Position numbers and translations under genes: made by a program
The notes under the pieces: model-generated
What the model was told of the DNA's origin: nothing
Seen by the model: the letters and a program-made list of their open reading frames with translations, nothing else
The model's database searches: none
Assembly (NCBI GenBank): GCA_039545315.1
Contig: BCIM01000002.1
Span: 461,369-525,368, forward strand
DNA: 64,000 nt
Origin: Kondoa malvinella
Lineage: Eukaryota; Basidiomycota; Agaricostilbomycetes; Agaricostilbales; Kondoaceae
Direction of reading: 5' to 3'
In this document: piece by piece, positions 6,404-61,093 of the stretch
Position numbering within the stretch: position 1 is the stretch's first letter
How the letters are laid out: each line of letters begins with the position of its first letter

Positions 6404-9400
6404 CTAAGCCATTTCAGGGTCCGAATCCGAATCATTGTCCAAGAAAAGCCGTTCCGAATAGTTGATCTGCTCTTCCAAGAAGTCCGCATCTTCACTGTCA
6501 GCCCAACCTCTCCCACCGACATAAGATAGCGCAACAGGCAGGAACACCAACCCATGCAATGCGCCTGCGAGGATCAATGCGAGCCACATGCGGAAGTAAT
6601 ATGTCTGCATGCACAGCTCAGCGTGTGTTAGCCATGCAACGCATTCCGATCACTTACCCGTAATAGCTGTGAGCGAGTCAGGGCGAGTACAGAGATACCG
6701 ATAAGCTTGGTCATTGTAATGCCAGATAAGACCTGTAGACATGTTCAGTCTGCGTCTCACTGGCAAAAGGAGAGAGAACTCACCGAAGACCCAACATCTG
6801 CCAAAGCGACCCAGGCTCTCTCATCCCTCTCTTTCTGTCCTGACGGGTGATGATAAGGTAAACCGCCGCCCAGAGCACCCATGAATGCTCTAGCGATATG
6901 CGAGCAAAACTCGACGCTGATCCCAATCGATATCACCAAATTGACCAAGCTGACTGCGTTCAAGCTAATGTTCCAGAGACCCATGATGCCCATCACCATC
7001 ATGACTGACATGAAGGTCGTCCAAGCTACTACTGCACCTGTTCGGAATGAACCGAGCATGAAGCTGGTCATGCCGAACACAGCTAGCAAAGCGAGAAAGA
7101 GGACTTGTCGTGTAGTAGCTGTGATAGTCGCGTATTGATCAAAGAAGACATAGAAGACCGAATATGGGTAGACATGGCCGCCACTGGTCTGGGAAAGATC
7201 ATCTGCAACTCGATTGACTGCTGCCATGGCATCGATAAAGTCCGCTTGTGACTTGAGTGGTGTATGATAGGTTCTTAAGTGCGATGCTGTGACGCCATGT
7301 GCAGACTTGAGACTGATCGCGGACGAGTACGGCGCTTGGCCTCCTAGAGGACATGCTTCATCTGTAGGTGATTGGAGCCATTGTTCGAGGTAGCGCATGA
7401 ACTTGTCGCCTTGAGGTAATCCTTCCATTGAGACGTTCCATTGCTGACTTTCTGCTTCGTAGCATGGCATACATCTTGATTCTGATTCTGAAGGACCGCA
7501 AAAGATGTTGTGGTCGTTTCTTCTCACTCGACAGCAAGTATCTAAAGCTGGATTGAGCCATTGGAAGAAGTCATCAAGCCAAACAGCCGGTGGCTCGGCA
7601 AGGAAGGAAGAATCGGACTGCTTGCGTTCAGCTTCTAGGATATTAGCTATAGATTGGTCTTTGCAAGTTGAGAAGCGACCACAGAGGGCTTGTTGTCCAG
7701 CTCGAGCTGTGACATTGACGTCTTCCGTCACAAAGTAGACGGGCGGTCCAACATCAAGGAAGTCGTCCAAAGCGTTAAAGTATGGAATGAGGTAAGACTC
7801 TGAAGGAAGAGCTAGTCGTTGATCTGCGAAAAGTCGGTCAGCTGAGATCACAGCATGCCCAATTTATGCCATACCCAAGCCTAGATCCACTGTTCTAGCA
7901 GCTACCCATGATAGAACAAAGAGCAGAGAAAAGATTGCGAGAACAGCTTGCTTCGTGTACTTTCTGAGCAAAAAAGGTGCATAGTGATTCGAGATGAATT
8001 TCGCGACGCTGCTTGAAGCCACTGCATATGTACTGGGTTTGGCAGGTGGCATCTTGACACATGGTAGACAATCGACCCGGTTTGCCTGAAAAGATATCAG
8101 CTTACACCGGCATATCATGCAAGGTCTTACCTCTGTTCTTCGCAAGTCGATCGTGATAGCGCTGACGAACACAGTCACTTGCAAGACAGCATTGATCGCG
8201 ACAGCTCCAGCAGCATAGATGGCAAAGTTGCGCACAGCCGGCATCCCAACCAGGGTGCCAAGCGAGAAAGCAACCGTCTCGCAGACTGCACTGAGAGTTA
8301 TAGAAGGTCCCATGCGTGAAAGCGCACGGGCGACTCGTTCTTCAGGCGGCGGCAAACCATCGAGGTCTTCATCATATTCTGCTCGTCGTTGATCATCGTC
8401 TACTAAGGCTTGACCTCCTCCATGTCTAGGCATGGTGGCATAGGCGCGAGCATTCTGTCTCTCTAGCTCATGAGCGAGAATGAAGACGTTATCGACACCG
8501 ATGGCGAGCACGAGAAAAGGGATAACTTCGGCGATGATCAGGGTGATCTTGATACCAAGCATGGAGAAGAGACCAACAGAAGTCGATACCGACAATAGGA
8601 CGACTATATCTCATCAGCGTGTAGTCAACGCTGGGTGATGTTGGCTTACTTGCGATGCCCCAAAGGCCCAAAAGGAACTTCGACTCGACCAAGACCCTTC
8701 GAAACAGGTGACCAGGCTTTTGTTCTCCATCCCCTTCATTCTCAAGGTAGATCGCGCCGCCCTTAATCTTCCTGTACACGACCCTATGTACTTGCCGCAG
8801 CAGACTGTCTAAAACGCCAAACAGACTACCCATTGTCCCTCCTAATGCAAGGGAGACATAGATGAACATGACCACATAGGACAGAATGACGATAGGGACA
8901 TCGGTATTAGTGGATTTGTTCAATTCTTGTTCTAGAGAAACACCAGTGGAATAGGCGATCTGGAGTCCAGCTTCCGATCGGGCTCGAATAGCTAATTGCG
9001 CAAGGTAGGTTCGAAGAGCATTTTCCCAGTCTTCTGCTTTGGCAATGACGGCTTTATCGAGCGAATTGTCTACGACATAGGTGATGACTAAAGCTCGAGC
9101 TTCTGTTGCCCGAACTAGAGCATCTTCATCCTCTTCCACTGTGAACAGAGCGGCTGAATGATTCCCACTATAACCTGGAATACCACCGAAGAGCAGTCGG
9201 GGAGACAAAGGCTGGCCGCTAGGAGGCAGACACAGACTCGGCGAGGAAGCACATTCGTTGATCGATTTTGCCCAGCTGGAGCGAATATTCGCAGCATCGT
9301 TGCCAAAGTAGCCCATGAAACTTTGCGTGACGCAATCGTCTGCTGATCTCGCTTCTCCAGAAGGCGCGAAGCAGACATCTCTCAGAGTATAGCCTTTCGG

Positions 9401-11112
9401 TGAAGTGAGTTGGCGGATTTCCTCTTCTATTCCAGCCCACCACTTCATTCGTTCATAGGTCAAGACAGGTTTGGTTGGTTCATCGAGAACAGAGAGGAAG
9501 ACCTGTTCGGTGCGGTAGAATGGACCGAAATCTGACTCAAAAGCTTCTTTGTTTCGTGCTGAATCTGATCCTTTCGCGACCCATAGCCTCACTGGATCTT
9601 TCTCAACTTTGAAGCGCCCCCAACCAGAGTTGAGCAAACCGCAGACGAGCAGACCGAGACAGAGGGTGATGTAAGGCTTCGAAGCGCAGAAATAGCCCAA
9701 GCTGTAGAACCACTTTGAGAGGTACGTATTGACAAAGTAAGATCGTGGTTGAGAAGCTTCTAGTGGTCCTCGTTCGAGCAGCGATGCACCTCGGCCTAAA
9801 CGATTGCGAGATAATGATTGAGCTGGTGAGCTGTCCATGATAGACGAGCCTGAAGGTGGTCCAGTAGATCGCAACAGTGCAGCAGAGTGTGACGAGTTGG
9901 AAGACTGGTGATCATGCGACTCGTTCTGATCCAATGGGTCGTCCATCGAGATTCCACTGACGTTGGAATTCCTGGACCGAAGTTTTGGCAAGATGACGGA
10001 TCTTCGTTCCCAGATGTTCTGTATACCGACACCGAACATAAAGCAAAAGAGCGTGATGCCGTACAGGAGGACCAGAGCGAAGTCGAAGCAGCGTAGTTTG
10101 CCTACCCGGCATTCCGAAGCGCGGACCTCTTGGGGCGAAGGAACATGAGGTAGCTCGAGGCAGTTTTCAGGACAATCGGGACATGCGCAACGAATGGACG
10201 GATCAGAAGAATTGCAGGCATTCACATTTCGGTCGAAGGGCTTGATCGTGGCATCGTGCACCGGCTTAGATCCAGGTATAGGCAGATCATCTACAGGTTG
10301 AGGGAAGTCGATTTGGAAAGGTGACCCGAGTCCAGGTCTCTGCAAGCAACAGCTGATTCAATCTTCTGTAGAAGATTGACAGCAAAAGCATACCTCTGTG
10401 CCCATGTATCGCACGAAACTCAGCCAATTCTTTGCACCGCCGCCCAAGAATTCCATCGCATAGCCATTTGTGGCGCCAAACTTGACATTCTTACAGCTAT
10501 CAAAGAAGCCTTGACCGAACTGCGTCGAGACATGAAAGGCCAGATTCTTGACTGCTGGTCCAGGAGCTGGTGCCAATGATGTATCTTCGAAAGCTGCAGC
10601 GAAAGAGGAGAGATTCTGTGTAGCTGTGACGGAAACGAAGAGACTTTGATCAGGAGAACACGTCATGCCGCAATAGAAGTCGCGAAAGTTGAGGCGACAG
10701 GCAGGACATAACGCCAGCAGAGGTTCAGCTTGAGCAAGAGATTGTTGAAAGGTCTCTAGCTGTGAAGGAGTACAGCAGGCGTGCGTCCAATCGCTATCTG
10801 TGCCACAGACTTCTCGCAGCGACGCTTGAAACGATGAATCTACCTAGAAAACCGGCTGATCAGAGGCTGCCACTGTGCTGCCGTATGGTTAAGACACACT
10901 TCTCTCGCTTTGCCGTTGTCTGCGCAAGGCAGCTCTTGGCCGAATATTCCTCCTTTCCGTCCGCAAGCGTCATACATCGAACACCTGCCAGCTTCTCTGA
11001 CAGTCTCCTGGCCCCAACGACGCTCATCTTGTGCTGCTACTAACTGGGTATAACCAAACGAAAGGTATACTGCTATCGGGAATATTGTAGTCATTAAAGT
11101 CAACAACCGCAT
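6404..11112 (-). CDS. NCR1: NPC1/Ncr1-type sterol transporter
   Basis: Polytopic vacuolar or lysosomal membrane protein of the Niemann-Pick C1 family (RND fold) that hands sterol from the lumen to the limiting membrane. ATG at 11112 starts a signal peptide ([19 protein letters not shown]), followed by the Cys-rich sterol-binding N-terminal domain ([29 protein letters not shown]). Next come a first membrane helix, a luminal loop, and the sterol-sensing domain around [16 protein letters not shown]. After a second luminal loop come the C-terminal five-helix bundle ([17 protein letters not shown]) and an acidic tail [11 protein letters not shown]. Introns are few, for example 44 nt near 8600-8650 and 51 nt near 7801-7851. 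About 1,400 residues, normal for the family. It lies 213 bp downstream of the Argonaute stop on the same strand. Confidence 0.93.
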
Positions 11113-28523: not shown

Positions 28524-28622
28524 TTCACGATGGCCGAGTGGTTAAGGCGGTAGACTTGAAGGCTCCCAGAGCCGCGAAATCTATTGACATCTGTCGCGTA
28601 GGTTCAAATCCTGCTCGTGAAG
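28524..28622 (+). tRNA. tRNA-Ser (anticodon UGA) with intron
   Basis: A seven-base-pair acceptor stem pairs ttcacga (28524-28530) with tcgtgaa (28615-28621), followed by discriminator g. The box A region is tggccgagtggttaaggcg. The anticodon arm is tagacttga...atcta, giving anticodon tga. An insertion of about 17 nt (ggctcccagagccgcga) follows the anticodon as a canonical tRNA intron. A class II long variable arm (ttgacatctgtcgc) precedes the T arm gtaggttcaaatcctgc. All points fit a eukaryotic tRNA-Ser. Confidence 0.93.
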
Positions 28623-35518: not shown

Positions 35519-38483
35519 ATGGCCGAAACATGCAATACCACGCTCAGGATAGAAGGAATGACTTGCGGAAGCTGTGTCAAGGTGCGGCCTGCTCTTTGAG
35601 CGAACCATCCGAAGCAGTCTGAAGCATAAGCGTTCAGGCAATCGAAGACGGACTATCGCAACAACCTGGCGTAGTCAGCATTCTCGTCAATCTGCTCGCA
35701 GAAAAGGCCAGCATAGCCTATGACCCAGCTCTATGGGATCCAGTCAAGCTAGCCAATGTATGCTCTTGCCTCTGCCACCAATCAGGAAGCACTCTTCTAA
35801 CAATAGGGCCGAACAGGAAATTGAAGACTTTGGCTTTGGTGCTTCTCCCATCACTGCAATAGAAGCTGGCGTAGCGCAAATATCAATCTACGGCATGCAT
35901 TGCGCCTCGTGTACTTCGACTATCGAGAAAGCATTCCTCGCCACGCCCGGCGTTCTCTCCGCTTCTGTCGTGCTTCATCCTGGTTCGGCTAGAGTAACAT
36001 ACGATACCTCTTTACTTGGTCTACGGGATCTCATCACCCTGGTGGAAGATAGAGGTTTCGACGCTGTGTTGGCAGATGAAGAAAGCAAGCTGACTCAACT
36101 CCGGTCGCTGGCTCGAACAAGGGAAATTACAGAATGGCGACGAGCCTTCCATATTGCTGCTGCTATTGCTCTACCGGTGTTCTTCCTCAGCATGATTTGT
36201 CCCATGGTGTGGTGCTTGAAACCCATCATCAATTACAAGCTTTTGCAAGGCATTTACCTTGGCGACATGATCTGCTTCTTCCTAACTATACCAGTACAAT
36301 TCATCATCGGCTCTCGATTCTACAAATCCGCATACAAAGCCATCAAGCACAAATCAGCGACTATGGACACCCTGGTCGTTATATCCACTTCGACCACCTT
36401 CTTCTATTCGACTTTCGCAATGTTCACCGCTCCATTCAGCTCTTCAAGTCCAGACTACCACCCCAAACTGTTCTTCGAAACTTCTTCCATGCTGATCGCT
36501 TTCATCACGCTGGGTCGCTATACTGAGAACATGGCAAAAGGCAAAACATCAGTCGCGCTTTCCAAGCTCATGTCGCTCACTCCTTCTACCGCAACGATCT
36601 ACACCGACGAAAAGTGTACCCAGGAGAAACGAATTCCAACTGAATTGATCCAGAATGGCGATATCGTCAAGATTATTCCTGGCGATAAGCTACCTGCTGA
36701 TGGCTGCCTCGTGTCCGGTGCAAGTGATGTAGATGAAAGCATGATTACTGGTGAAGCCCTACCAGTGCACAAGACGCCTGGTGAAATGGTGATTGGCGGG
36801 ACAGTGAATGGTTCAGGGACTTTCGATATGCGGGTGACGAAAGCTGGAAGAGACACGGCGCTCAGCCAGATTGTCAGTTTGGTGGAAGAAGCTCAAACTT
36901 CTAAAGCACCTATTCAAGCTTTCGCCGATACCGTTGCTGGCTATTTCGTTCCTGCGGTCGTCGTACTTGGCATCGGCACCTTCTTCGGTTGGATGATCAT
37001 CTCGCACAACAACCTCATGGATCCTCTACCAATGTTTTTCCGCGATGCTGGCACGCCAAACTACCTCGTCTGTATGACAATCGCCATTTCGGTCATTGTG
37101 GTTGCGTGTCCTTGCGCATTAGGCTTAAGTACGCCTACTGCAGTGATGGTTGGTACGGGTGTTGGAGCGCAGCATGGAATATTGATCAAGGGTGCGGGAC
37201 CGCTAGAAGCGAGTAAGAGTATCAACAAGATTGTATTGGACAAAACTGGCACCCTAACAACGGGCAAGATGGTTGTCGCCGGTGTTTCGTGGTCAGACTC
37301 TTTGTTTGCGCAAGAAGAGGCCTGGAGGCAAGAGGCGCTTTTGGCAATCTATGCGACCGAAAGCAAGTCTGAACACCCTCTGGCGAATGCTGTGGCCGAA
37401 TATGTTCGCTCTCAACTCAATATACTCTCTCTACCTGAAGAAGTCAAAGTGCACGCGTTTGAAAACACTGCAGGCAAAGGCGTAACAGCATCCATTTCTA
37501 CCTTGAACCACCACTCGCGAGAAATCGTCATCGGCAATGCTGCTTTACTCTCCTCGCACAACGTTTCTCTGCCACCCGCAATGGAAGAGTTCCGTGCTGC
37601 CAACCAATCTATGGGTCGAACGGTCATCTCTGCTGCCATTGATCAATCCCTAACCTGCTTGTTCGCAATATCCGATACCATCAAGCCGGAAGCGAAGCAG
37701 ACTGTCGAAGCGTTGAGAATGTTGGGTGTTAGCGTTTCTATGGTCACCGGTGATCAGCTAGCTACCGCTGCGGCCATTGCAAGAGAAGTCGGCATCGATG
37801 AACATGATGTGTATGCGGGTGTTAGTCCGGCTGGCAAGCGAGAGATTGTGTGTCAACTGCAGGGCGAAGGGTACAAGGTAGCTATGGTTTGTTCTAAATT
37901 TCTTGACTAGACCCATGTTCATGATTGTTCACAGGTTGGGGACGGCATCAATGACTCGCCAGCATTGGCTGCATCAGATGTCGGCATCGGTCTTTGCTCT
38001 GGCACCGATATCGCTATGGAGGCAGCAGACATTGTGCTTATGCGGTCAGATCTGTTGGACGTCGTCGCTGCACTGCATCTTTCTCGGCGGATCTTCAAGC
38101 AGATTCGATTGAACTTCCTCTGTAAGCTAAACTTTAATGTCATAGAAATCCAGCTGACCGTGCTTCCAGGGGCAACTATATACAACATGGTCGGCATTCC
38201 AATAGCGATGGGTCTGCTTCTGCCTTGGGGCATCATGCTACATCCGATGATGGCAGGCGCGATGATGGCCTTCTCTTCCGTCTCTGTTGTCCTCTCCTCG
38301 CTTTCACTTCGACTTTGGCGCCGTCCCGCAATCTCAATGCGTGGTCCGACGCTCCAGCCTAAACAGCAATACATTAGCGACCTTTACAATGTGGTCAAAG
38401 AAGCCAACCCATTCAGTCGATACGGAAGACCAAACAAGGAGATGGACCTGGAGGAATCTGTACCATTGACTTCTCAGGTGTAG
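35519..38483 (+). CDS. CCC2: Copper-transporting P1B-type ATPase
   Basis: Pumps Cu+ into the secretory pathway (trans-Golgi) for loading multicopper oxidases. Start [13 protein letters not shown] at 35519. It has two heavy-metal-binding domains, GMTCGSC (exon 1-2) and GMHCASC. Membrane helices follow, then the actuator motif [21 protein letters not shown] (CPC metal site), [12 protein letters not shown] (phosphorylated Asp), SEHPLANAV (SEHPL) and [10 protein letters not shown] (hinge). The end is [10 protein letters not shown]. Introns: after SCVK; 35760-35817, where the correct acceptor is gaacag giving [11 protein letters not shown]; and one before VGDGIND. The C-terminal helices contain a tyrosine-Asn pattern (NVIEIQ) as in Cu-ATPases. 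Confidence 0.94.
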
Positions 38484-38715: not shown

Positions 38716-42881
<4,166 letters not shown>

Positions 42882-44360: not shown

Positions 44361-45573
44361 TTTGGTCTGCTGGATCCCGCTTCTCTCTTGTCACCCTTCC
44401 TCGTCTTTTCGCTGGTCTGCTCATCTAAATCAACTGGTATTCGAGCTTTATCCAATACGCGCTGTCGGGTTTGGTCGCCTCAATCCCGCTGCTTACGATT
44501 TTCGGCCATATTTCACGCGAATCTCCCTCGATTGCTTTCATCGCATTGCACGTCTTGAAGACCTCGTCTGGCTATTCCAGTCTTAGCAGCAAGCCCAGTC
44601 AGACAAGTGAAGGCGGAACCTTGATTAGCGCGTCACAAGCAACGGGTCAACAAAAGGTCAAAAACTCAAAAGTCTGCTTACCTGACCTTTTTTGGCTCTT
44701 GTCGCTCTCTTCTGTCACCTCCCGTTCTATCTGCTGCATTGACTGCTGTGTGCTGTACTATCGCTTGAAGACATGTATCATGCAGCCTTACACGATTACC
44801 TGCGATGCTCATGATACAAGAGTTGCCTTTTTGTATGCAATCTCGCGTCAGTTAAAGTTTGAAGTCGTGAGGCCCTCTCGCTTCGTCTATTTTACTGCTG
44901 TGTCATCTCTCTATCCCTGTATGGTATCTTGCTCGGTGGAAAGAATCGGATGAAAGGAGAAGTTAGACGATGACATCCCATCATTGTTTCATTAATTTTC
45001 GCAAGCGGAGCTTTGTCATCGGCTCATCGTTATTGACAGGAGGCTCTGAAGCATTGCGACAGGGTCTGAGACGTGTGGATCTGTTGCCGGTAGACGCGTA
45101 TCAGAGGGAGCAAGCACTGTGGCTTTAGGACGCTTCATGAGAATCACGATTCTAACGAAGGCTTGTTCTGATTTCGCAATTTGAGCTCATTGCCAACAAC
45201 ATCACCTCAGAAGGTGTGCTCTGGCGTTCTTGGCCTAGAGTTTTTATTGGCTTACTTGAAAGCTTGAGTCACCTTTTGTCACGGCCGGGTGCAAATAACC
45301 ACTATGTACAAGATAAAGTCCAAATCAACAAAAAGGACATCATGTCAGATTGTGATATTGATCGAGAGAAACTGTACAGAATGGTGTCAGCCTCATTTGA
45401 ATCCTGTATGCTCCCGTTTCAGACTTACGACAACATCAGAAGATAATGATAGAAGGAGGAGTATCACAATATCAATATCGGTCCTTATGCAGTAGAGAAC
45501 GACGAACGTGTACTGCGATGGTCTAGCCATCTCCGACAACATCAGTAGTCTGTGTCGTGTATTCTGTAATAGT
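44361..45573. other. Noncoding interval downstream of the XPG-Fanzor gene
   Basis: About 1.2 kb between the MAPEG stop and the 3' end of the Fanzor gene. No convincing coding frame. The part next to the Fanzor stop (about 44950-45573) is where a guide (omega) RNA would lie if the usual OMEGA arrangement holds. I cannot demonstrate an RNA. Confidence 0.45.
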
Positions 45574-48500
45574 TCAAGCTAAGGATCGCAGTGCGATGAC
45601 GACAGGCTCTAGCTCACCCTCTTTTCGGTCGAACGGGTGACATCCCCAGACCAGCCAATGCCAGGCAGCAAAGGCAATGTTGCAAGCAGCAGCGGTGTCT
45701 CTGTTGTACTTGCGATGGCACTTCTCGCATTGGAGTACCCGTTGACAGCGGCGACCAGAATCCACAAAGGTGGGCTTGTGCAGACTGCCCGATGAATCAG
45801 CGGACTCTACTCGCAAAGATAGATGAGATCAAACATACTATGATCGTATCCAGTCTTCCTCTGGCTTGTCATCTTGTGAAACTTCCCAGTCTGGGCCCGG
45901 TGGGCGCAAACACTCGGTATCCGGGCAAACTTGCGAACTGAATCCTTCTTTAACCAGCATAGACATGACTTCAAGCATCTGACATTCTATTTCGGACAGA
46001 ATAGCGCGAAGAATGACATTTCTGAAGTCGGCAGTATGAGTCTTGATGCCCTTTGCTGGACCACAGTCGGCACCAATCGCAAATATGATCTTGAGTTTCT
46101 GATCCAGACATCGCTTGCTGGCTGTACCGGCGGAATGCTGCCGTCCATAACGAGCACCAGAAGCTTCCAGAACTTGAGCTGAGATTCGGGCGTTCGCAGA
46201 CTGGCGGCGTTGACGCAGCAGCCAGGCTTCGTTGCGGACTCTTCTAGACGTGCGGAAGAGGATTTTGAAGCAGGTATGAGCAAACCCAGCCAAGGAGCCA
46301 GGCATCACATTCTGCGGAAGCAAAGACCGGCTGCGAGTCTCTTCCAGATCGATCGGAAAGATATCGCGTAGCTGTGCGACATTACGACTATGTGTCTTAA
46401 TCTGCTCTTGAAGCGCCTTCGGAGAGAGCAAAAGTCGACGTTGAACAGCTTTCCCGGTTTCATCGAACGTTCTGATCCAGAAAGCATGCGTAAAGGTGTG
46501 ACCAGCGTCGTTGCCTATGAAGACAGTCTTGGTGCATGCTTCTGCGACATCGACGTTTGCCTTCCGCGCGCAACAATCACCATCAATGTCCATCTGCAAT
46601 TATGTCAGCTGAAGCAACAGTAGTCTTGGACCGATTCCTCACCTCTTTGTCTGGCTCTTTGGGTACTTCCTCTGCTCTAACCAGTCTCTTTGCACTACTC
46701 TTGCCCAAGACAAAATCTCGCCCGCTTTGCACCGTTCTTTCGTCAAGGACCCTCAAACCCATCGGCAGGCCGTTTCTGGTCTTTTCTGGTCCGACGAACT
46801 GGACTGAAGTGAAAGGCCGCCTCATGCTGTCAAGTCGACATCCACCTTGACCTGGCGCGCAGTAGGTTGGGATGATACGTGATTTCCCAAAGCTGCTCTT
46901 CGGTCGTTCTGCTTCGTTCATCTCCGAATCTTGAGAGTCTCGGGTCGCGGTGGGCGGTGAAGGTGAAAGATGAGTCTTGTTCAGAAAGTCGATTTTGTCT
47001 ACTCGGGAAGTGTCTAGGAGAGCGTTCGTCTTGACCTGGGCGTTGACTCGTAAAAAGATCTCCTTGATATTGAGGTTGCCAGTGTTGTCTTGCTTGCCAC
47101 GAGACACATCTATGCCGTTGAGGACGAGTGCTAAACCATCGAATTGAAGTCCACCAGTCGGGATGAAATACTCGGGAACATCTGACAGGTCAAAGACGAT
47201 GTCGAGAAGCGGTAATATCAGACCCTTCGAGTTGTCTGCTGAAAGGAATTTCTTGATGGAGTGGGGAGACAGCTGTTCGCCAATGTGATCGGAGTATCGC
47301 TCAGCAGCTCTGATAAAGTCTTCACTTGCTACAAGTCCTTCAGCTTGAGGTAGGCCGACCTTCGATCTTAGCAGCTTTCGACCTATTGTCATTCGATCCA
47401 TTGAATCTCTCTTCTGGCCTGTTGGCATCTTGGCGCAATGCTCGAAGCATACCAAGGAGTCGATGAGTCCTGCTGACTGGAAGGCAAGGTCTGACTTGAC
47501 TCGAGCGGAAGGATCTTGATGCGGATGATCTGCTGATGCCGTTGAAGATTCTTCCAGGCACGACTGAGACATGAAGGTGTGCCAGCGAGGAAGGCAAGCC
47601 CGGTTTAGCCAATTTGTAGCGGAGCTGATAAATTGACGAGGCTTAAAGATTAAGGGACGTAGGATTATGAAAGGGATGGGTAAGAAGGCCGGTGCGAATT
47701 CCTGTGCTGTCAAGTAAGCAGATGAACGGGACCTGAGCGAGTACGGACTATCATAGCTCCATCTGGCTTTTCTTGGTTCAGAAGCATTGTATGACGCCAT
47801 CGGAGCAAGCGCAGGGGATCACTAGCCAAAATTTGCCTTGGTGTAGATCCGAGATCGACTGTATCTTCCATCAGATGGTTTCTTTGCTGGAGAAGCGGTG
47901 TGAGAATTGATTTCAGCAGATGCTGCAGAGGGGGCTCTATTGCAGTAGCCTGAGCAGACATATTGTGATGCTGAATTGCTTTTCGCAGACGAGCTTTGAT
48001 ACCATCGGAGAACGGAGGAAGACCGTCGCGAGTTTTTGTCGTCGGTAGTTGCATCAGAAGGTTAATCAGGACGTTAGAGATGGACTTCATCGAGCGGCGA
48101 AGCAAGTGATATCCAGTAGAGTTGGGTTTGACCTTCTTTAACAATCGTTTCACTTCTCGTCCCACGCAGGCTTGCAAGTCCTCTTTGGAGGCGACGGTCA
48201 AGTTTGTCGCGATCTTGACCGAGATGGCTTCCCAGAGATGGGTTGGGGCAGCAAGATAAGGAAGAAGGGGGTATGTGCTGTTGAGAAGTGCTTCTACTGA
48301 CTCGATAAGGATAGGGTCGAGATCTTGGATGTCGCGAATCCTGCCTAAAATTCTTGGAGACAAGCTATTGGCGTAGGCTCTCGCTTTCGCTAGAGCTTGT
48401 TCCGAAGGTTGCTTGCTACTCTTGCTGAGGTCGACCTCGAACCATCGAACGAATTTCGGCCTCAGCAGACCTTGCCGGAATTCTGCAAGTTTGGCTGGAT

Positions 48501-51098
48501 CGGTCGGGTCTGCTCCTTTCTGTTCTTCCGTGAGCAATTGACAGAGCGTCTTGATCATCTGGGATAGCTCGCCAGGGTTCTCATATCGCCCTCTTACAGT
48601 GGACTTGCGCAAGATGGCGTTGATGAGGTGGAAGCGAAGACAGAAGGAAATTGAAGGTAAAGAGAGTTGCTGACATAGGTATACAAGAGAGAGAGTGGTG
48701 ATAAGCGGCTTCGAGTGCGATGGATCTGCTTCTTCGAAATGCTGGCGGACTAGAGCATTTGCTATTCGGATACACACTGACACAGAGTAGACGGATTTGT
48801 GGTTGTAGGGTATTTGTTTCTGCTTCTCCTTCTCCGTCTTTGTTTGTCGCTTTTTTCTGGTTGTTGAATTTCCGGCAGGACTTGACTCTTCTTCATCTGG
48901 ATCATCAGCTTGCAACTCTTCTGTCGCCTCTGCCTCCGCCTGCGCATACGATTCTATATCCTCTAGATCCCCATCCGCAATATCTAATTCATCCGGAACG
49001 TCTGCTGCTCTGACCTTGCTCAATTTTGCCAAGCGCTGTTTCCGAAGCTGTGCGAAAGTTGCGACTTTTTCTTTGACTTGTCTTTCCGGTAGACTTGCAT
49101 TGAACTTGTGAGCTTGCTCGAAAGCCGCCTCATCCGCCTCATCGATGGTCTGTTGGTTCGCTTGCTGTTGCATCTTTGAGCGCTTCTTTCTCGGTCTTGC
49201 TCGTTCGATGCGTTCAGAGTACCACATAGGTGGAGGAAGCTCTTGTTTGCCTGGCTTGAGGTAGATTGGGCTTGACCGGCAGTAGGACTTTGCAGCCAGT
49301 TTCAGATGAGCGCCATAATCAGGTGACAGGGCGGAAATATCGACCTCGTCGAGATCCATATCATCTGCTGGTCTGTCTGCAGGTCTTTCGTCTAGATCCA
49401 TGTTAGATGTAAGGTTTGGATCCGAATCTGGATGGTTCAGCAAGGCTAGGAAGGGATTTTGAGCATTGGGGTAGGACGTCGGACGAGGAGGATTTGCAAA
49501 AGGGTATCGAAGATTCTGCCTAGACTTATTGGGAAGACCGACGGACGACATGATTGACTCTTCGAGTGCCTTGGCTCTAGCTGCTGCTGCTGCTAGATCT
49601 TCGTCTGATGCTCGGGTGTGACAAAGGTACTTCAAGCACAAAGCTCCCTCGAGAAACGTTCGATCAAAGTTTGGCCGATTGATGGATTCTTGCATCTGGT
49701 GATACATTGATCTTTGCTCATCGCGTCGCTTCTTGGGCAGACGCCGGATAACATCTTCACAGTGATCTTGAAAATTCTCTAGTGTCTCTTGAGGGTCATT
49801 CTATTGATTCGTGATCAGAGAGCGATCTAGAAAGCCAAATCAGAGCTTACGGAAGAGATCATATCCATCAAAGGCTCGAGCCGAGTCACGCCAAGTTGGG
49901 CAATGCCTTTCCCGCCCGTCACATCTTGGCCAGCGATCATCGCCCATTGCTGTGCCCTTCCCTCGGTCTCGGGCCACTCCGCTTGCGATTCAAGCAACTT
50001 TTTATCACAAAGCTCCCACTTCTCGCTAGACCTATTGACGTATCTGCGCTTTGGCTGGCGAAGAATGTATCGAAAGGATGTTGATCGTCTAAGGATAAGG
50101 AAATCGGAGTCGAAAGTGATCGCCACGGACGAATCAGCTGTAGCGAAGCCGAGGAAGATCTGTGCGTCTGAGTAGCGACAGCTGGAGAAGTCGCTTTCGT
50201 CAACTGACTTCACAAGTTTGATGGGTGCTCGAGATGATAGAAGATTGGCGTTTGCGTTGCGCCAGCTAGCATCAAAGGCGGTAGAGTCACTTGAGCAAGA
50301 AGAGGGTCGAGGTAGGCTTGCAGGCTGCTCGACGAAGACAGCTGTACCGGGTGGGAAAGAGTCCAGTATGGGAGCATTGCCCCTTGAGAGATCAAAGTCG
50401 GAAGAGGTGATTGCAAACGAATAGAAATGGATGACGTTGTCGGTGAAATCGCGATGAAGATTCCTGAGACGTCGATATAGACGCGAGATTTCTGCGGAAG
50501 AGTCGAACGCCGCTTGCTTGCTCATTCTGGACTTGCTTGATCTTGACTTGGGCGATTGGGCGGCCTGAAGTCGGTCAAGTTGAGATACAACTTCTTCAGC
50601 TTCCTCAAATGCCTTTTGAGCGAGACATCGTCCTTTCAATCGTGCAGATACACGGTCTTCGTGCGTTGCCAATTTGCCAGCGACAGAGGCGCTTGCTTCT
50701 CGATCGTCAAAGAAGAGGACAGTGTCTTGCGCGTTGCTTGAGCATTCTACGGCGACCGAGCAGACATAGTCGACAGTCTGAGCCTTGAGGTAGTCGTTGG
50801 CTGCTTTCACGGTTGCGAATTTCTTGCCCCTTCGAGCGCATAGTCGAGCGAAAGGGCCAACAAAAGTCAGACCTTTCTTTATTCTATCGCTTTCAGACCA
50901 GGCGATGTTGGTCACGTCGATCCGATAGTCTGTAAATGTATATCATGAGCCTCGGCTAAACATACTGAACATCAGCATACCACGCAATGGCACAGGCATA
51001 GAGGATGCCGCAGAGGTGATTGATTCATGGCGAGCGAGTATCTTGCCGACGCGTCCTGAGATCTTGGCGACATATCCCCATCCGCCTGACCAACCCAT
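45574..51098 (-). CDS. XPG/FEN1-like - Fanzor (TnpB-type RuvC) fusion protein
   Basis: Six exons (50981-51098, 49851-50929, 47749-49800, 46643-47701, 45839-46593, 45574-45784), joined by introns of 47-54 nt. They sum to 5,274 nt in one uninterrupted frame of about 1,757 residues. Residues about 1-400 resemble XPG N and I regions: RIDVTNIAW, TVLFFDDREAS (113-119), YSDAQIFLGFATADSS with ITFDSDFLIL (D313, D315), and a helix-turn GQDVTGGKGIAQLGVTRL. The usual first EAxxQ glutamate is absent. Basic and acidic linkers follow (about 400-700), then a helical Fanzor-like N-terminal region. The RuvC nuclease: IGNDAGHTF (D1465), FAIGADCG, LVKEGFSSQVCP (E1652), a CxxxxC...CxxC zinc ribbon (C1659, C1664, C1707, C1710) and YNRDTAAACNI (D1717). 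The alternative start is at 51137. Fanzor identity is strong; the XPG call is moderate. Confidence 0.83.
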
Positions 51099-51221: not shown

Positions 51222-51262
51222 ACAGACGGTTAACGTCTTGCCCAACAGACGGTTAACGTCTT
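51222..51262. promoter_or_regulatory. Tandem 18-bp near-palindromic repeat upstream of the XPG-Fanzor gene
   Basis: Two identical copies of acagacggttaacgtctt at 51222-51239 and 51245-51262, 23 bp apart, 124 bp before the ATG at 51098. Each unit is close to a palindrome around gttaac. It could be a factor-binding site or a remnant of a transposon end. Confidence 0.6.
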
Positions 51263-55752: not shown

Positions 55753-56542
55753 TAGTAAGCGTTGGGACAGTCATGATCATAGCTTGAAGCACGGATCCGC
55801 CAACGTTCTTGGACACGTGCAAGCCAGGCAATGAACACCATAGTAGATAGCAGTATTATACTACTCTGAGCTGGAAGGCGATTCTGAAGGTTCATTTGGT
55901 GCTGCGATCAAGAAGGCCTTGCGATCTCGAAGCCAATGTTGACTTTTTGTCGTCGATTCCCACCAGACTACTATCGACCTTCATGCCTGCCGAGTCGATG
56001 CATGAACAGTGGAGACTATAGATCGAGCATCTACGAGCGACCAAGCCGTGTCGCTGCATGATATCGTATAGCTAACAAATTTACGGCTGGAAGTGTGACA
56101 AGCCTTCTGGTGTTGCACACCTCGTGGAATGAAGCATAACAAGTACATTGCAGCTTGAGCTTTGCTGCTCTGGTCAGGCGAGGCCTCGATGCGCTTGCTC
56201 GTAACAAGCGTCGAGACGGACATCGGACGCACATAAAACAGGACTTAATGTCCACTTTCAAAAACGGACTTCGCTTTGCCCGCCGTGAACCTTTCTGTCA
56301 CCATCACCACGACCTCATTTGTTCAGCACGACGAACGACGGCTTCCTGTTCCCAACACTTTTCCTGTCATTTCTCTCTGCTTCAGCCCGCTAGCGACTGC
56401 TTCGATCGCAAAATAAACTTCATTGCACGTTGCCCGCGACCAAGTGAGAACGTTCGCTAGGCAACAAACAACTGCAACAGCTATACCAGCTCGCTCGCTT
56501 TCCTCCTGCGCCGCAACCTTGCAAGCGTCCAGCCTGGCTCCC
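55753..56542. other. Intergenic
   Basis: About 790 bp between two plus-strand genes. It includes the promoter and probable 5' UTR of the Ecl1-like gene. No supported ORF. Confidence 0.5.
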
Positions 56543-60263: not shown

Positions 60264-61093
60264 AGAATTTGTTGACTCTCTCCCAAGACGATTCCCCATC
60301 TGTCGTAGCTGTCTTCGCACCTGAAGGTGCATCTGCTTTGGATACCTCATCAGTACAAGAGACTAATCACTATCCAACCAGACTTAAATCGCTCGAGAGT
60401 TCCTATACACCAAAAAGATCTCGTCGGTCTACAGCATGCATCTGCTCGGATACCAGGGCTGATCAGACGGCGATACAGAATAATGTCTACTCCTGAGCTC
60501 GCCGCAACCTACGCTTGCCTCATCCTCGCCGATGAGGAGATGGAAATCACCGCAGACAAGATCAACTCGCTCGTCTCTGCTGCCAAGGTCGAAATGGAAC
60601 CTATCTGGGCTTCATTGATGGCCAAGGTACATTACATGATGATGAGACACCGGATGTGATGCTGAGATTTGGGTTGAACAGGCTCTAGAGGGCAAGAACA
60701 TCAAGGAGATGCTCACCAACGTCGGATCTGGCGGTGGAGCTGCTCCCGCTGCTGGAGGAGCTGCTGCTGGAGGTGACGCCGCTGCCGCACCTGCCGCTGA
60801 GGAGGAGAAGGCCAAGGAGGAGGAGAAGGAGGACGTACGTGTATTCTTCAGCTGCTCGTTCAATCACTCATTTGCCTTGTGCGCTATCAGTCAGATGACG
60901 ACATGGGCTTCGGTCTCTTCGATTAGAGCAAAAATCGCATCGTATCATTACCGCTNTGCAGAACCAGACCGACAGTCAGCAATTTGCCTAGTGTCCTTTT
61001 TCTGCTGCACTGGATTTGTCATGCGTTGTCTCTCTCACCTTTCCAGCCGTCGCTGTCTTGAACTCTTTCTGCACTGCGATGCTCTTCGCATAT
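60264..61093 (+). repeat. Segmental duplication, copy 1 (contains RPP1)
   Basis: About 830 bp nearly identical to 62982-63811 at a constant offset of 2,718 bp. It covers the promoter, the whole P1 gene and its 3' flank. An ambiguous base n is at 60956 (c at 63674), and a few substitutions appear after about 61010. Confidence 0.95.
60483..60926 (+). CDS. RPP1: 60S acidic ribosomal protein P1, copy 1
   Basis: Acidic stalk protein of the large ribosomal subunit that recruits and activates translation GTPases. Start [19 protein letters not shown] at 60483. The helical dimerisation domain ends IWASLMAK, then an intron (donor gtacat). Next come [17 protein letters not shown], the Ala/Gly hinge, the acidic stretch [12 protein letters not shown], a second intron (donor gtacgt), and [11 protein letters not shown], the conserved P-protein tail, ending at 60926. 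About 109 residues, normal. The sequence upstream is open in the same frame but lacks homology. Confidence 0.95.

Follow-up and report, generated by a model that had tools for sequence, protein, structure and literature searches.

A fungal gene family that may join an XPG/FEN1-like region to a Fanzor-like RuvC nuclease in one spliced protein

Enzymes of the FEN1/XPG type cleave 5′ flaps and bubble junctions. Fanzors, the other kind of nuclease at issue here, are mostly 600–700 amino acids (aa) long and carried by mobile elements (PMC3627910, PMC11423790; these and the other papers cited are drawn on in excerpt). They are defined by the arrangement D-X(125,275)-[TS][TS]xx-C4 zinc finger-X(5,50)-RD (PMC3627910), with the RuvC-II glutamate displaced to a position six residues before the first cysteine, and a TDG motif in the WED domain marks Fanzor1 (PMC10711439). 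Fanzors that have been tested work with an RNA that comes from the transposon end and has the guide as its 3′ flank; SpuFz1 leaves 5′ overhangs, and the ends made by other Fanzors are blunt or have 3′ overhangs (PMC10432273). Here we describe a gene on the minus strand of a 64,000-nt stretch of the basidiomycete Kondoa malvinella (contig BCIM01000002.1, positions 461,369–525,368; the whole stretch is referred to below as the window, and coordinates are those of the window unless a locus is named) that appears to bring both kinds of nuclease together. Judging from genomic sequence, we put at roughly 55% the probability that it is one spliced gene of a four-member family and encodes, in a single protein, a Fanzor-like RuvC nuclease together with a likely nuclease of the XPG/FEN1 type, making a guided two-nuclease DNA cutter.

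Six exons of 118, 1079, 2052, 1059, 755, and 211 nt, separated by five introns with GT/AG ends (51, 50, 47, 49, and 54 nt), join into one uninterrupted frame of 1,757 codons, and both the exon lengths and the intron sizes were confirmed exactly where the first-pass annotation of the window had placed them; all exon joins, here and in the relatives described below, are predicted splicing read from the genomic sequence. Exon 1 (50981..51098) begins with MGWSG, a start of the FEN1/XPG-type form MGxxG that is found in all four family members and is followed in each by a phase-1 intron. The remainder of the XPG/FEN1-like region, aa 40–399, is encoded by exon 2 (49851..50929) and carries D44, D114, K125, R132, E284, D313, D315, and D375. 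Exon 3 (47749..49800) encodes a middle region, aa 400–1083, in which no domain was recognized and in or near which lie basic runs resembling nuclear localization signals (KKRR, KRSK, and KKVK). The Fanzor-like region then extends over exon 4 (46643..47701; aa 1084–1436, predicted to be its WED/REC portion), exon 5 (45839..46593), which holds the RuvC core with residues D1465 (RuvC-I) and E1652 and the cysteines Cys1659 and Cys1664, and exon 6 (45618..45784), which supplies Cys1707, Cys1710, and the RuvC-III motif NRD (D1717). The first version of exon 6 had been extended to 45574. Because a strong splice donor directly after ...FDRKE is conserved in the window gene (GTGAGC) and in its closest relative, C3 (GTGAGT), with resulting introns of 54 and 57 nt, the 211-nt last exon is probably a 167-nt exon followed by an additional 41-nt exon; this predicted seventh exon (45523..45563, minus strand), placed by the donor and acceptor in both genes, would encode the final residues and the stop codon of a protein of 1,756 aa. 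Upstream of the gene, about 125–165 nt from the ATG, an 18-bp near-palindrome (AAGACGTTAACCGTCTGT) occurs twice at 51222–51262, with 5 bp between the copies, and could be regulatory.

The 19.1-Mb genome (20 contigs) gave 22 Fungal_trans matches, compared with 0 in 14 control genomes, which marks it as fungal. Searching it with exon 3, the Pfam TNB model, and exon 5 recovered six related loci, including the one in the window; the TNB model by itself recovered four of these, all below its cut-off. Three of the others are full-length as spliced predictions: C3 (L008, 1,724 aa), C2b (L018, 1,664 aa), and C12 (L019, 1,680 aa). The window gene and C3 are 37% identical, C2b and C12 43%, and the remaining four comparisons give 21–22%, so the full-length members are presumably old. 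Every one of them has the same domain order, an XPG-like N-terminus, a middle of 616–684 aa, and a Fanzor-like C-terminus. Three introns, those following residues 399, 1083, and 1687 of the window protein, match across the four members in both alignment column and phase. The first intron also agrees in phase throughout, in a stretch that aligns poorly (columns 51, 51, 43, and 41); the last is common to the window gene and C3, and the intron after residue 1436 has its C3 counterpart within a gap-rich stretch, in a different column. No copy of the XPG-like part lacking the rest was found in this genome, exon 2 of the window gene and exon 2 of C2b each matching two places that together are the four full-length members. 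Given three co-linear paralogs and three introns at common positions, the window locus is very likely one fused gene rather than two neighbors. The earlier proposal of a single protein of about 1,757 residues therefore stands as regards the fusion, but its last exon had to be corrected, probably to the 1,756 aa given above.

The other two loci, L009 (on C2) and L010 (on C1), hold the C-terminal part only, corresponding to window residues 1432–1743 and 1166–1743, respectively. They are 94% identical to each other across 1.5 kb, and L010 contains one stop and one frame break. We considered and rejected an origin of these truncated copies as retrocopies, because the intron preceding the last coding exon is retained. 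Among the full-length genes, synonymous sites are saturated (proportion of synonymous differences, pS, 0.76–0.85) while the proportion of nonsynonymous differences (pN) is 0.25–0.50 in each of the four segments for either pair and lowest in RuvC, which supports the view that the fused proteins have been maintained by selection over a long time.

The C-terminal part, 602–715 aa in the four members, had been identified in the first-pass annotation as Fanzor-like, and the comparison across the family upholds this. The RuvC D-E-D residues, the four cysteines, and the moved glutamate are present in all four; the constellation D..[TS][TS]..C4..RD was matched by all four and by none of 2,000 shuffled proteins, using a pattern that also required D.G and in which the cysteine spacing was widened to 2–4 and 10–60 to admit the CxxxxC of the first pair. 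With widened cysteine spacing again, a glutamate six residues ahead of the first cysteine was found in 4/4 members and in one of 2,000 shuffled proteins. Pfam TNB (best E 5.1e-6) and NCBIfam guided_TnpB (best E 3e-4) were named for each member, weakly in every case. Several points weigh against the overall reading: the window protein scores 24.0 and 25.8 bits against TNB, under the curated cut-off of 26.3, and 11.9 against guided_TnpB, where the cut-off is 100; its RuvC-I motif reads NDAG instead of DPG; the first cysteine pair is CxxxxC instead of CxxC; an AlphaFold2 (AF2) model of exon 5 alone was unusable, with a predicted local distance difference test (pLDDT) score of 37; and the TDG motif is absent from all four members. 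For lack of TDG we file this part as Fanzor-like, without assigning it to Fanzor1 or any other clade.

Downstream of the window gene, on the minus strand at 45300..45347, lies a sequence of the form ...GTCCTTTTT..GGAC..TTGTACATAGTG that recurs at the two truncated copies and at a solo site. It is 77% identical over 48 nt to the 3′ end of L010 (E 2e-4) and 73% identical to that of L009 (E 0.10, not significant alone), and L009 and L010 also cease to resemble each other at that point, immediately past TAGTGAG. The solo copy, C4:100833-100906 (L025), stands about 50 bp ahead of an ATG that possibly starts a gene, and we regard it as a protein-less 'ghost' end, by analogy with the protein-less Fanzor ends called 'ghost loci' in the excerpted text of PMC10432273. 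Of six genomic occurrences of the 12-mer TTGTACATAGTG, four lie at right-end-like sites; on its own the 12-mer proves nothing, because a reversed control pattern also occurs four times. From its recurrence at the truncated copies and the solo site, the sequence at 45300–45347 probably forms the 3′ terminus of a mobile element as well as that of a putative guide-RNA scaffold, and mobile ancestry of the family is likely, in the sense that the window type was mobile at least in the past, with no implication of present activity. An RNA fold of 45297–45530 was no better than those of shuffled sequences (z −0.47), a point against the overall reading. The right-end-like sequence speaks in part against the first-pass annotation's view that visible transposon ends are lacking, and its suggestion of a domesticated host gene fits the long retention under constraint, but mobile ancestry is supported as well. 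Two further similarities were noted: 98 bp just left of the truncated copy L009 (reverse strand, 7131–7228) match C7:169687 (L024) with 93% identity, and 57 bp of the window at 56231–56287 match, with 89% identity, a sequence lying about 1 kb away from the same truncated copy, perhaps as a short dispersed repeat.

These observations bear on the best-surviving rival, that the gene belongs to a still-active selfish element, with the fusion serving the element's copying or holding and having no host role. We consider this doubtful, if a serious contender. In its favor, the right-end-like sequence recurs at the window, L009, L010, and the C4 solo site, four in all, with flanks that diverge after TAGTG(A), except that the L010 and C4 sites remain somewhat similar for about a dozen bases; the 94% identity of the two C-terminal-only copies, of which one is damaged, and the resemblance of solo ends to ghost loci (PMC10432273, in excerpt) point the same way. 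On the other hand, the 4 kb preceding the window gene showed no inverted right end, no right-end-like sequence was recognized within 700 bases downstream of C3, C2b, and C12, and the full-length members are old by their divergence.

How far the fused gene encodes a second nuclease depends on its N-terminal region, which we regard as XPG-like with good but not final support. Residues invariant in the four sequences include M1, G2, G5, D114, K125, R132, E284, D313, D315, G373, D375, G379, G381, and G386, which we take to fit the XPG/FEN1 series; D44 was read by eye and falls outside the invariant set. A profile of residues 1–399 matched an XPG_I profile with E 3e-4 and a score of 33.4 on profile columns 272–382. 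The reference profile was built, with hand-joined rows, from this genome's own genes of what we read as FEN1, RAD2, YEN1, and mitochondrial types. Four other protein segments used as controls scored at most 16.9, and none of 300 column shuffles reached the real score (maximum 19.1). Under an alternative alignment, the score came to 29.6 (E 0.0012) and that of the reversed profile to 9.4; one of 100 shuffles of this alignment exceeded the real score (134.8 over 18 columns), which we read as a numerical artefact yet count. The earlier identification of an XPG/FEN1-like N-terminus is accordingly backed by profile for the XPG_I half, whereas the XPG_N half is recognized by motif only (MGxxG and D..K-x6-R in 4/4 members). 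Another XPG-type gene of this genome, L029 (on C5), resembles the fused family in having a long insert between its halves.

It is improbable, in our estimate, that the N-terminus is instead an unrelated or inactive domain with coincidental motifs and the protein a Fanzor with a long N-terminal extension. Several results do count in that direction or against the overall reading: neither Pfam XPG_N nor XPG_I matched any of the four members, NCBIfam contains no XPG model, the XPG_N half gave no profile signal (19 of 150 shuffles scored equally high), and a single-sequence AF2 model of exon 2 was unusable at pLDDT 40, so that the fold prediction proposed as a check on the XPG-like part was run on this exon and neither showed nor refuted the fold. 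Against them stand the controlled XPG_I match and the maintenance of the acidic residues and the MGxxG start at about 21% identity.

Outside this genome, the search for relatives gave little. Among 5.8 billion proteins no full-length homologue was found in another species (7,989 scored candidates, none with E ≤ 1); the proposed check for this domain order in related fungi thus gave no case outside the fungus's own genome, which has the three paralogs. The Fanzor-part profile had one match at E ≤ 0.01 among 7,999 scored, P0001, an open reading frame (ORF) matching exon 4 with 92.6% identity over 311 aa (sources lgn, ena). The N-part profile had one match at E ≤ 1 among 7,996 scored, P0002, an ORF nearly identical (99%) to exon 2 in an ENA contig, perhaps from the same species as the window. 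Both preserve the reading frame on other contigs. A search of viral contigs with the Fanzor profile gave 22 pattern matches, none of them a relative; PHROGs gave weak transposase-family matches only (best E 0.0085); the PDB gave no match by sequence and, in profile searches, three chance-level chains each, none of them XPG or Fanzor. The empty homologue search and the PDB profile results speak against the proposed identification.

There is also very little room for two adjacent genes joined on paper only, an XPG-like/middle protein (exons 1–3) and a Fanzor (exons 4–6/7), since, even though the short-contig ORFs P0001 and P0002 have one exon each and the window's exon-4 frame is open upstream of its intron and contains an ATG (ORF 46583–47818), the intron that separates exon 3 from exon 4, in phase 0, lies in the identical column in all four members (47, 48, 50, and 50 nt), a stop inside it closes the exon-4 frame in C3, C2b, and C12, and the Fanzor part's first methionine comes at its residue 36–48 in 4/4, preceded by a stretch that is alike by eye in those same three paralogs.

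The literature searched, which excluded supplements and subscription papers, did not name Fanzor together with XPG, and gave no paper on a fusion of TnpB with a 'PIN domain', on Fanzor in basidiomycetes (a large fungal Fanzor may stand unremarked elsewhere), or on an XPG-bearing novel fungal transposable element. The first-pass view that such a fusion is undescribed is consistent with this, but must be set beside a genome-editing review in which FEN1/flap endonuclease co-occurs with Fanzor/TnpB.

If the reading of one fused, guided two-nuclease gene is correct, the Fanzor-like part, the C-terminal 602–715 aa, would take up as its guide an RNA that the right end of the element gives rise to, and would open and cut double-stranded DNA beside a target-adjacent motif (TAM), like tested Fanzors. 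The XPG-like nuclease could then act on a flap or a single/double-strand junction of the R-loop, or on a 5′ overhang made by RuvC, and so trim or widen the break in cooperation with the first nuclease. Action on the R-loop junction or on a Fanzor-made overhang seems to us the most economical role for the XPG-like domain. The family is likely to have derived from a mobile element and to have been kept long afterwards with its introns and both sets of catalytic residues. It is a more tentative idea, and one we do not favor strongly, that these are natural dual-nuclease RNA-guided enzymes in which the R-loop or 5′ overhang is passed on within one polypeptide, the four diverged genes being kept for a cellular job that might be mobile-element control or the making of trimmed programmable breaks. 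If true, old paralogs, four in number, with a second nuclease fused on would show how nature can process the ends that guided cutting leaves. It would become testable whether Fanzors have been put to use by a eukaryote, the protein would be a possible template for guided cut-and-trim editors, and the order XPG–middle–Fanzor would offer a search pattern for other fungi.

The gene lies in ordinary gene surroundings. ORFs in the window include an NPC1-like protein (8492–10357), a heavy-metal P-type ATPase (35724–37907), and a USP7-like protein (38886–40846). A tRNA at 28524–28622, detected by Rfam and missed by ARAGORN as run, is probably intron-bearing because it is 99 nt long. The sequence contains one N, at 60956.

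Set beside known systems, the family agrees with Fanzor1 and Fanzor2 in its RuvC D-E-D residues with moved glutamate, four cysteines, [TS][TS]xxC, and NRD (PMC3627910, PMC10432273, PMC10711439, PMC11423790), in the length of its Fanzor-like part (602–715 aa, compared with 600–700 aa for most Fanzor1 proteins; PMC11423790), and in the right-end-like sequence downstream of the window gene. It differs in its 1,009–1,083 additional N-terminal residues, which include the XPG-like region, in its four to six introns, and in lacking TDG, having CxxxxC as the first cysteine pair, and reading NDAG at RuvC-I in the window gene. With XPG, RAD2, FEN1, and GEN1 it shares the MGxxG start, the D..K-x6-R, E, DxD, and GxDx[TS]G residues, and the XPG_I profile match, but it has no Pfam XPG match, a long insert between the halves, and a fusion to a RuvC nuclease. 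Bacterial TnpB and Cas12f have the TNB zinc ribbon and RuvC-III motif in common with it, whereas the protein here is far larger, eukaryotic, and intron-bearing, with weak profile scores confined to the C-terminus. PpFz1, with its FRI domain, is likewise a Fanzor bearing an extra domain, but that domain is about 100 aa, lies within RuvC, and is not termed a nuclease in the excerpted text of its source (PMC11423790).

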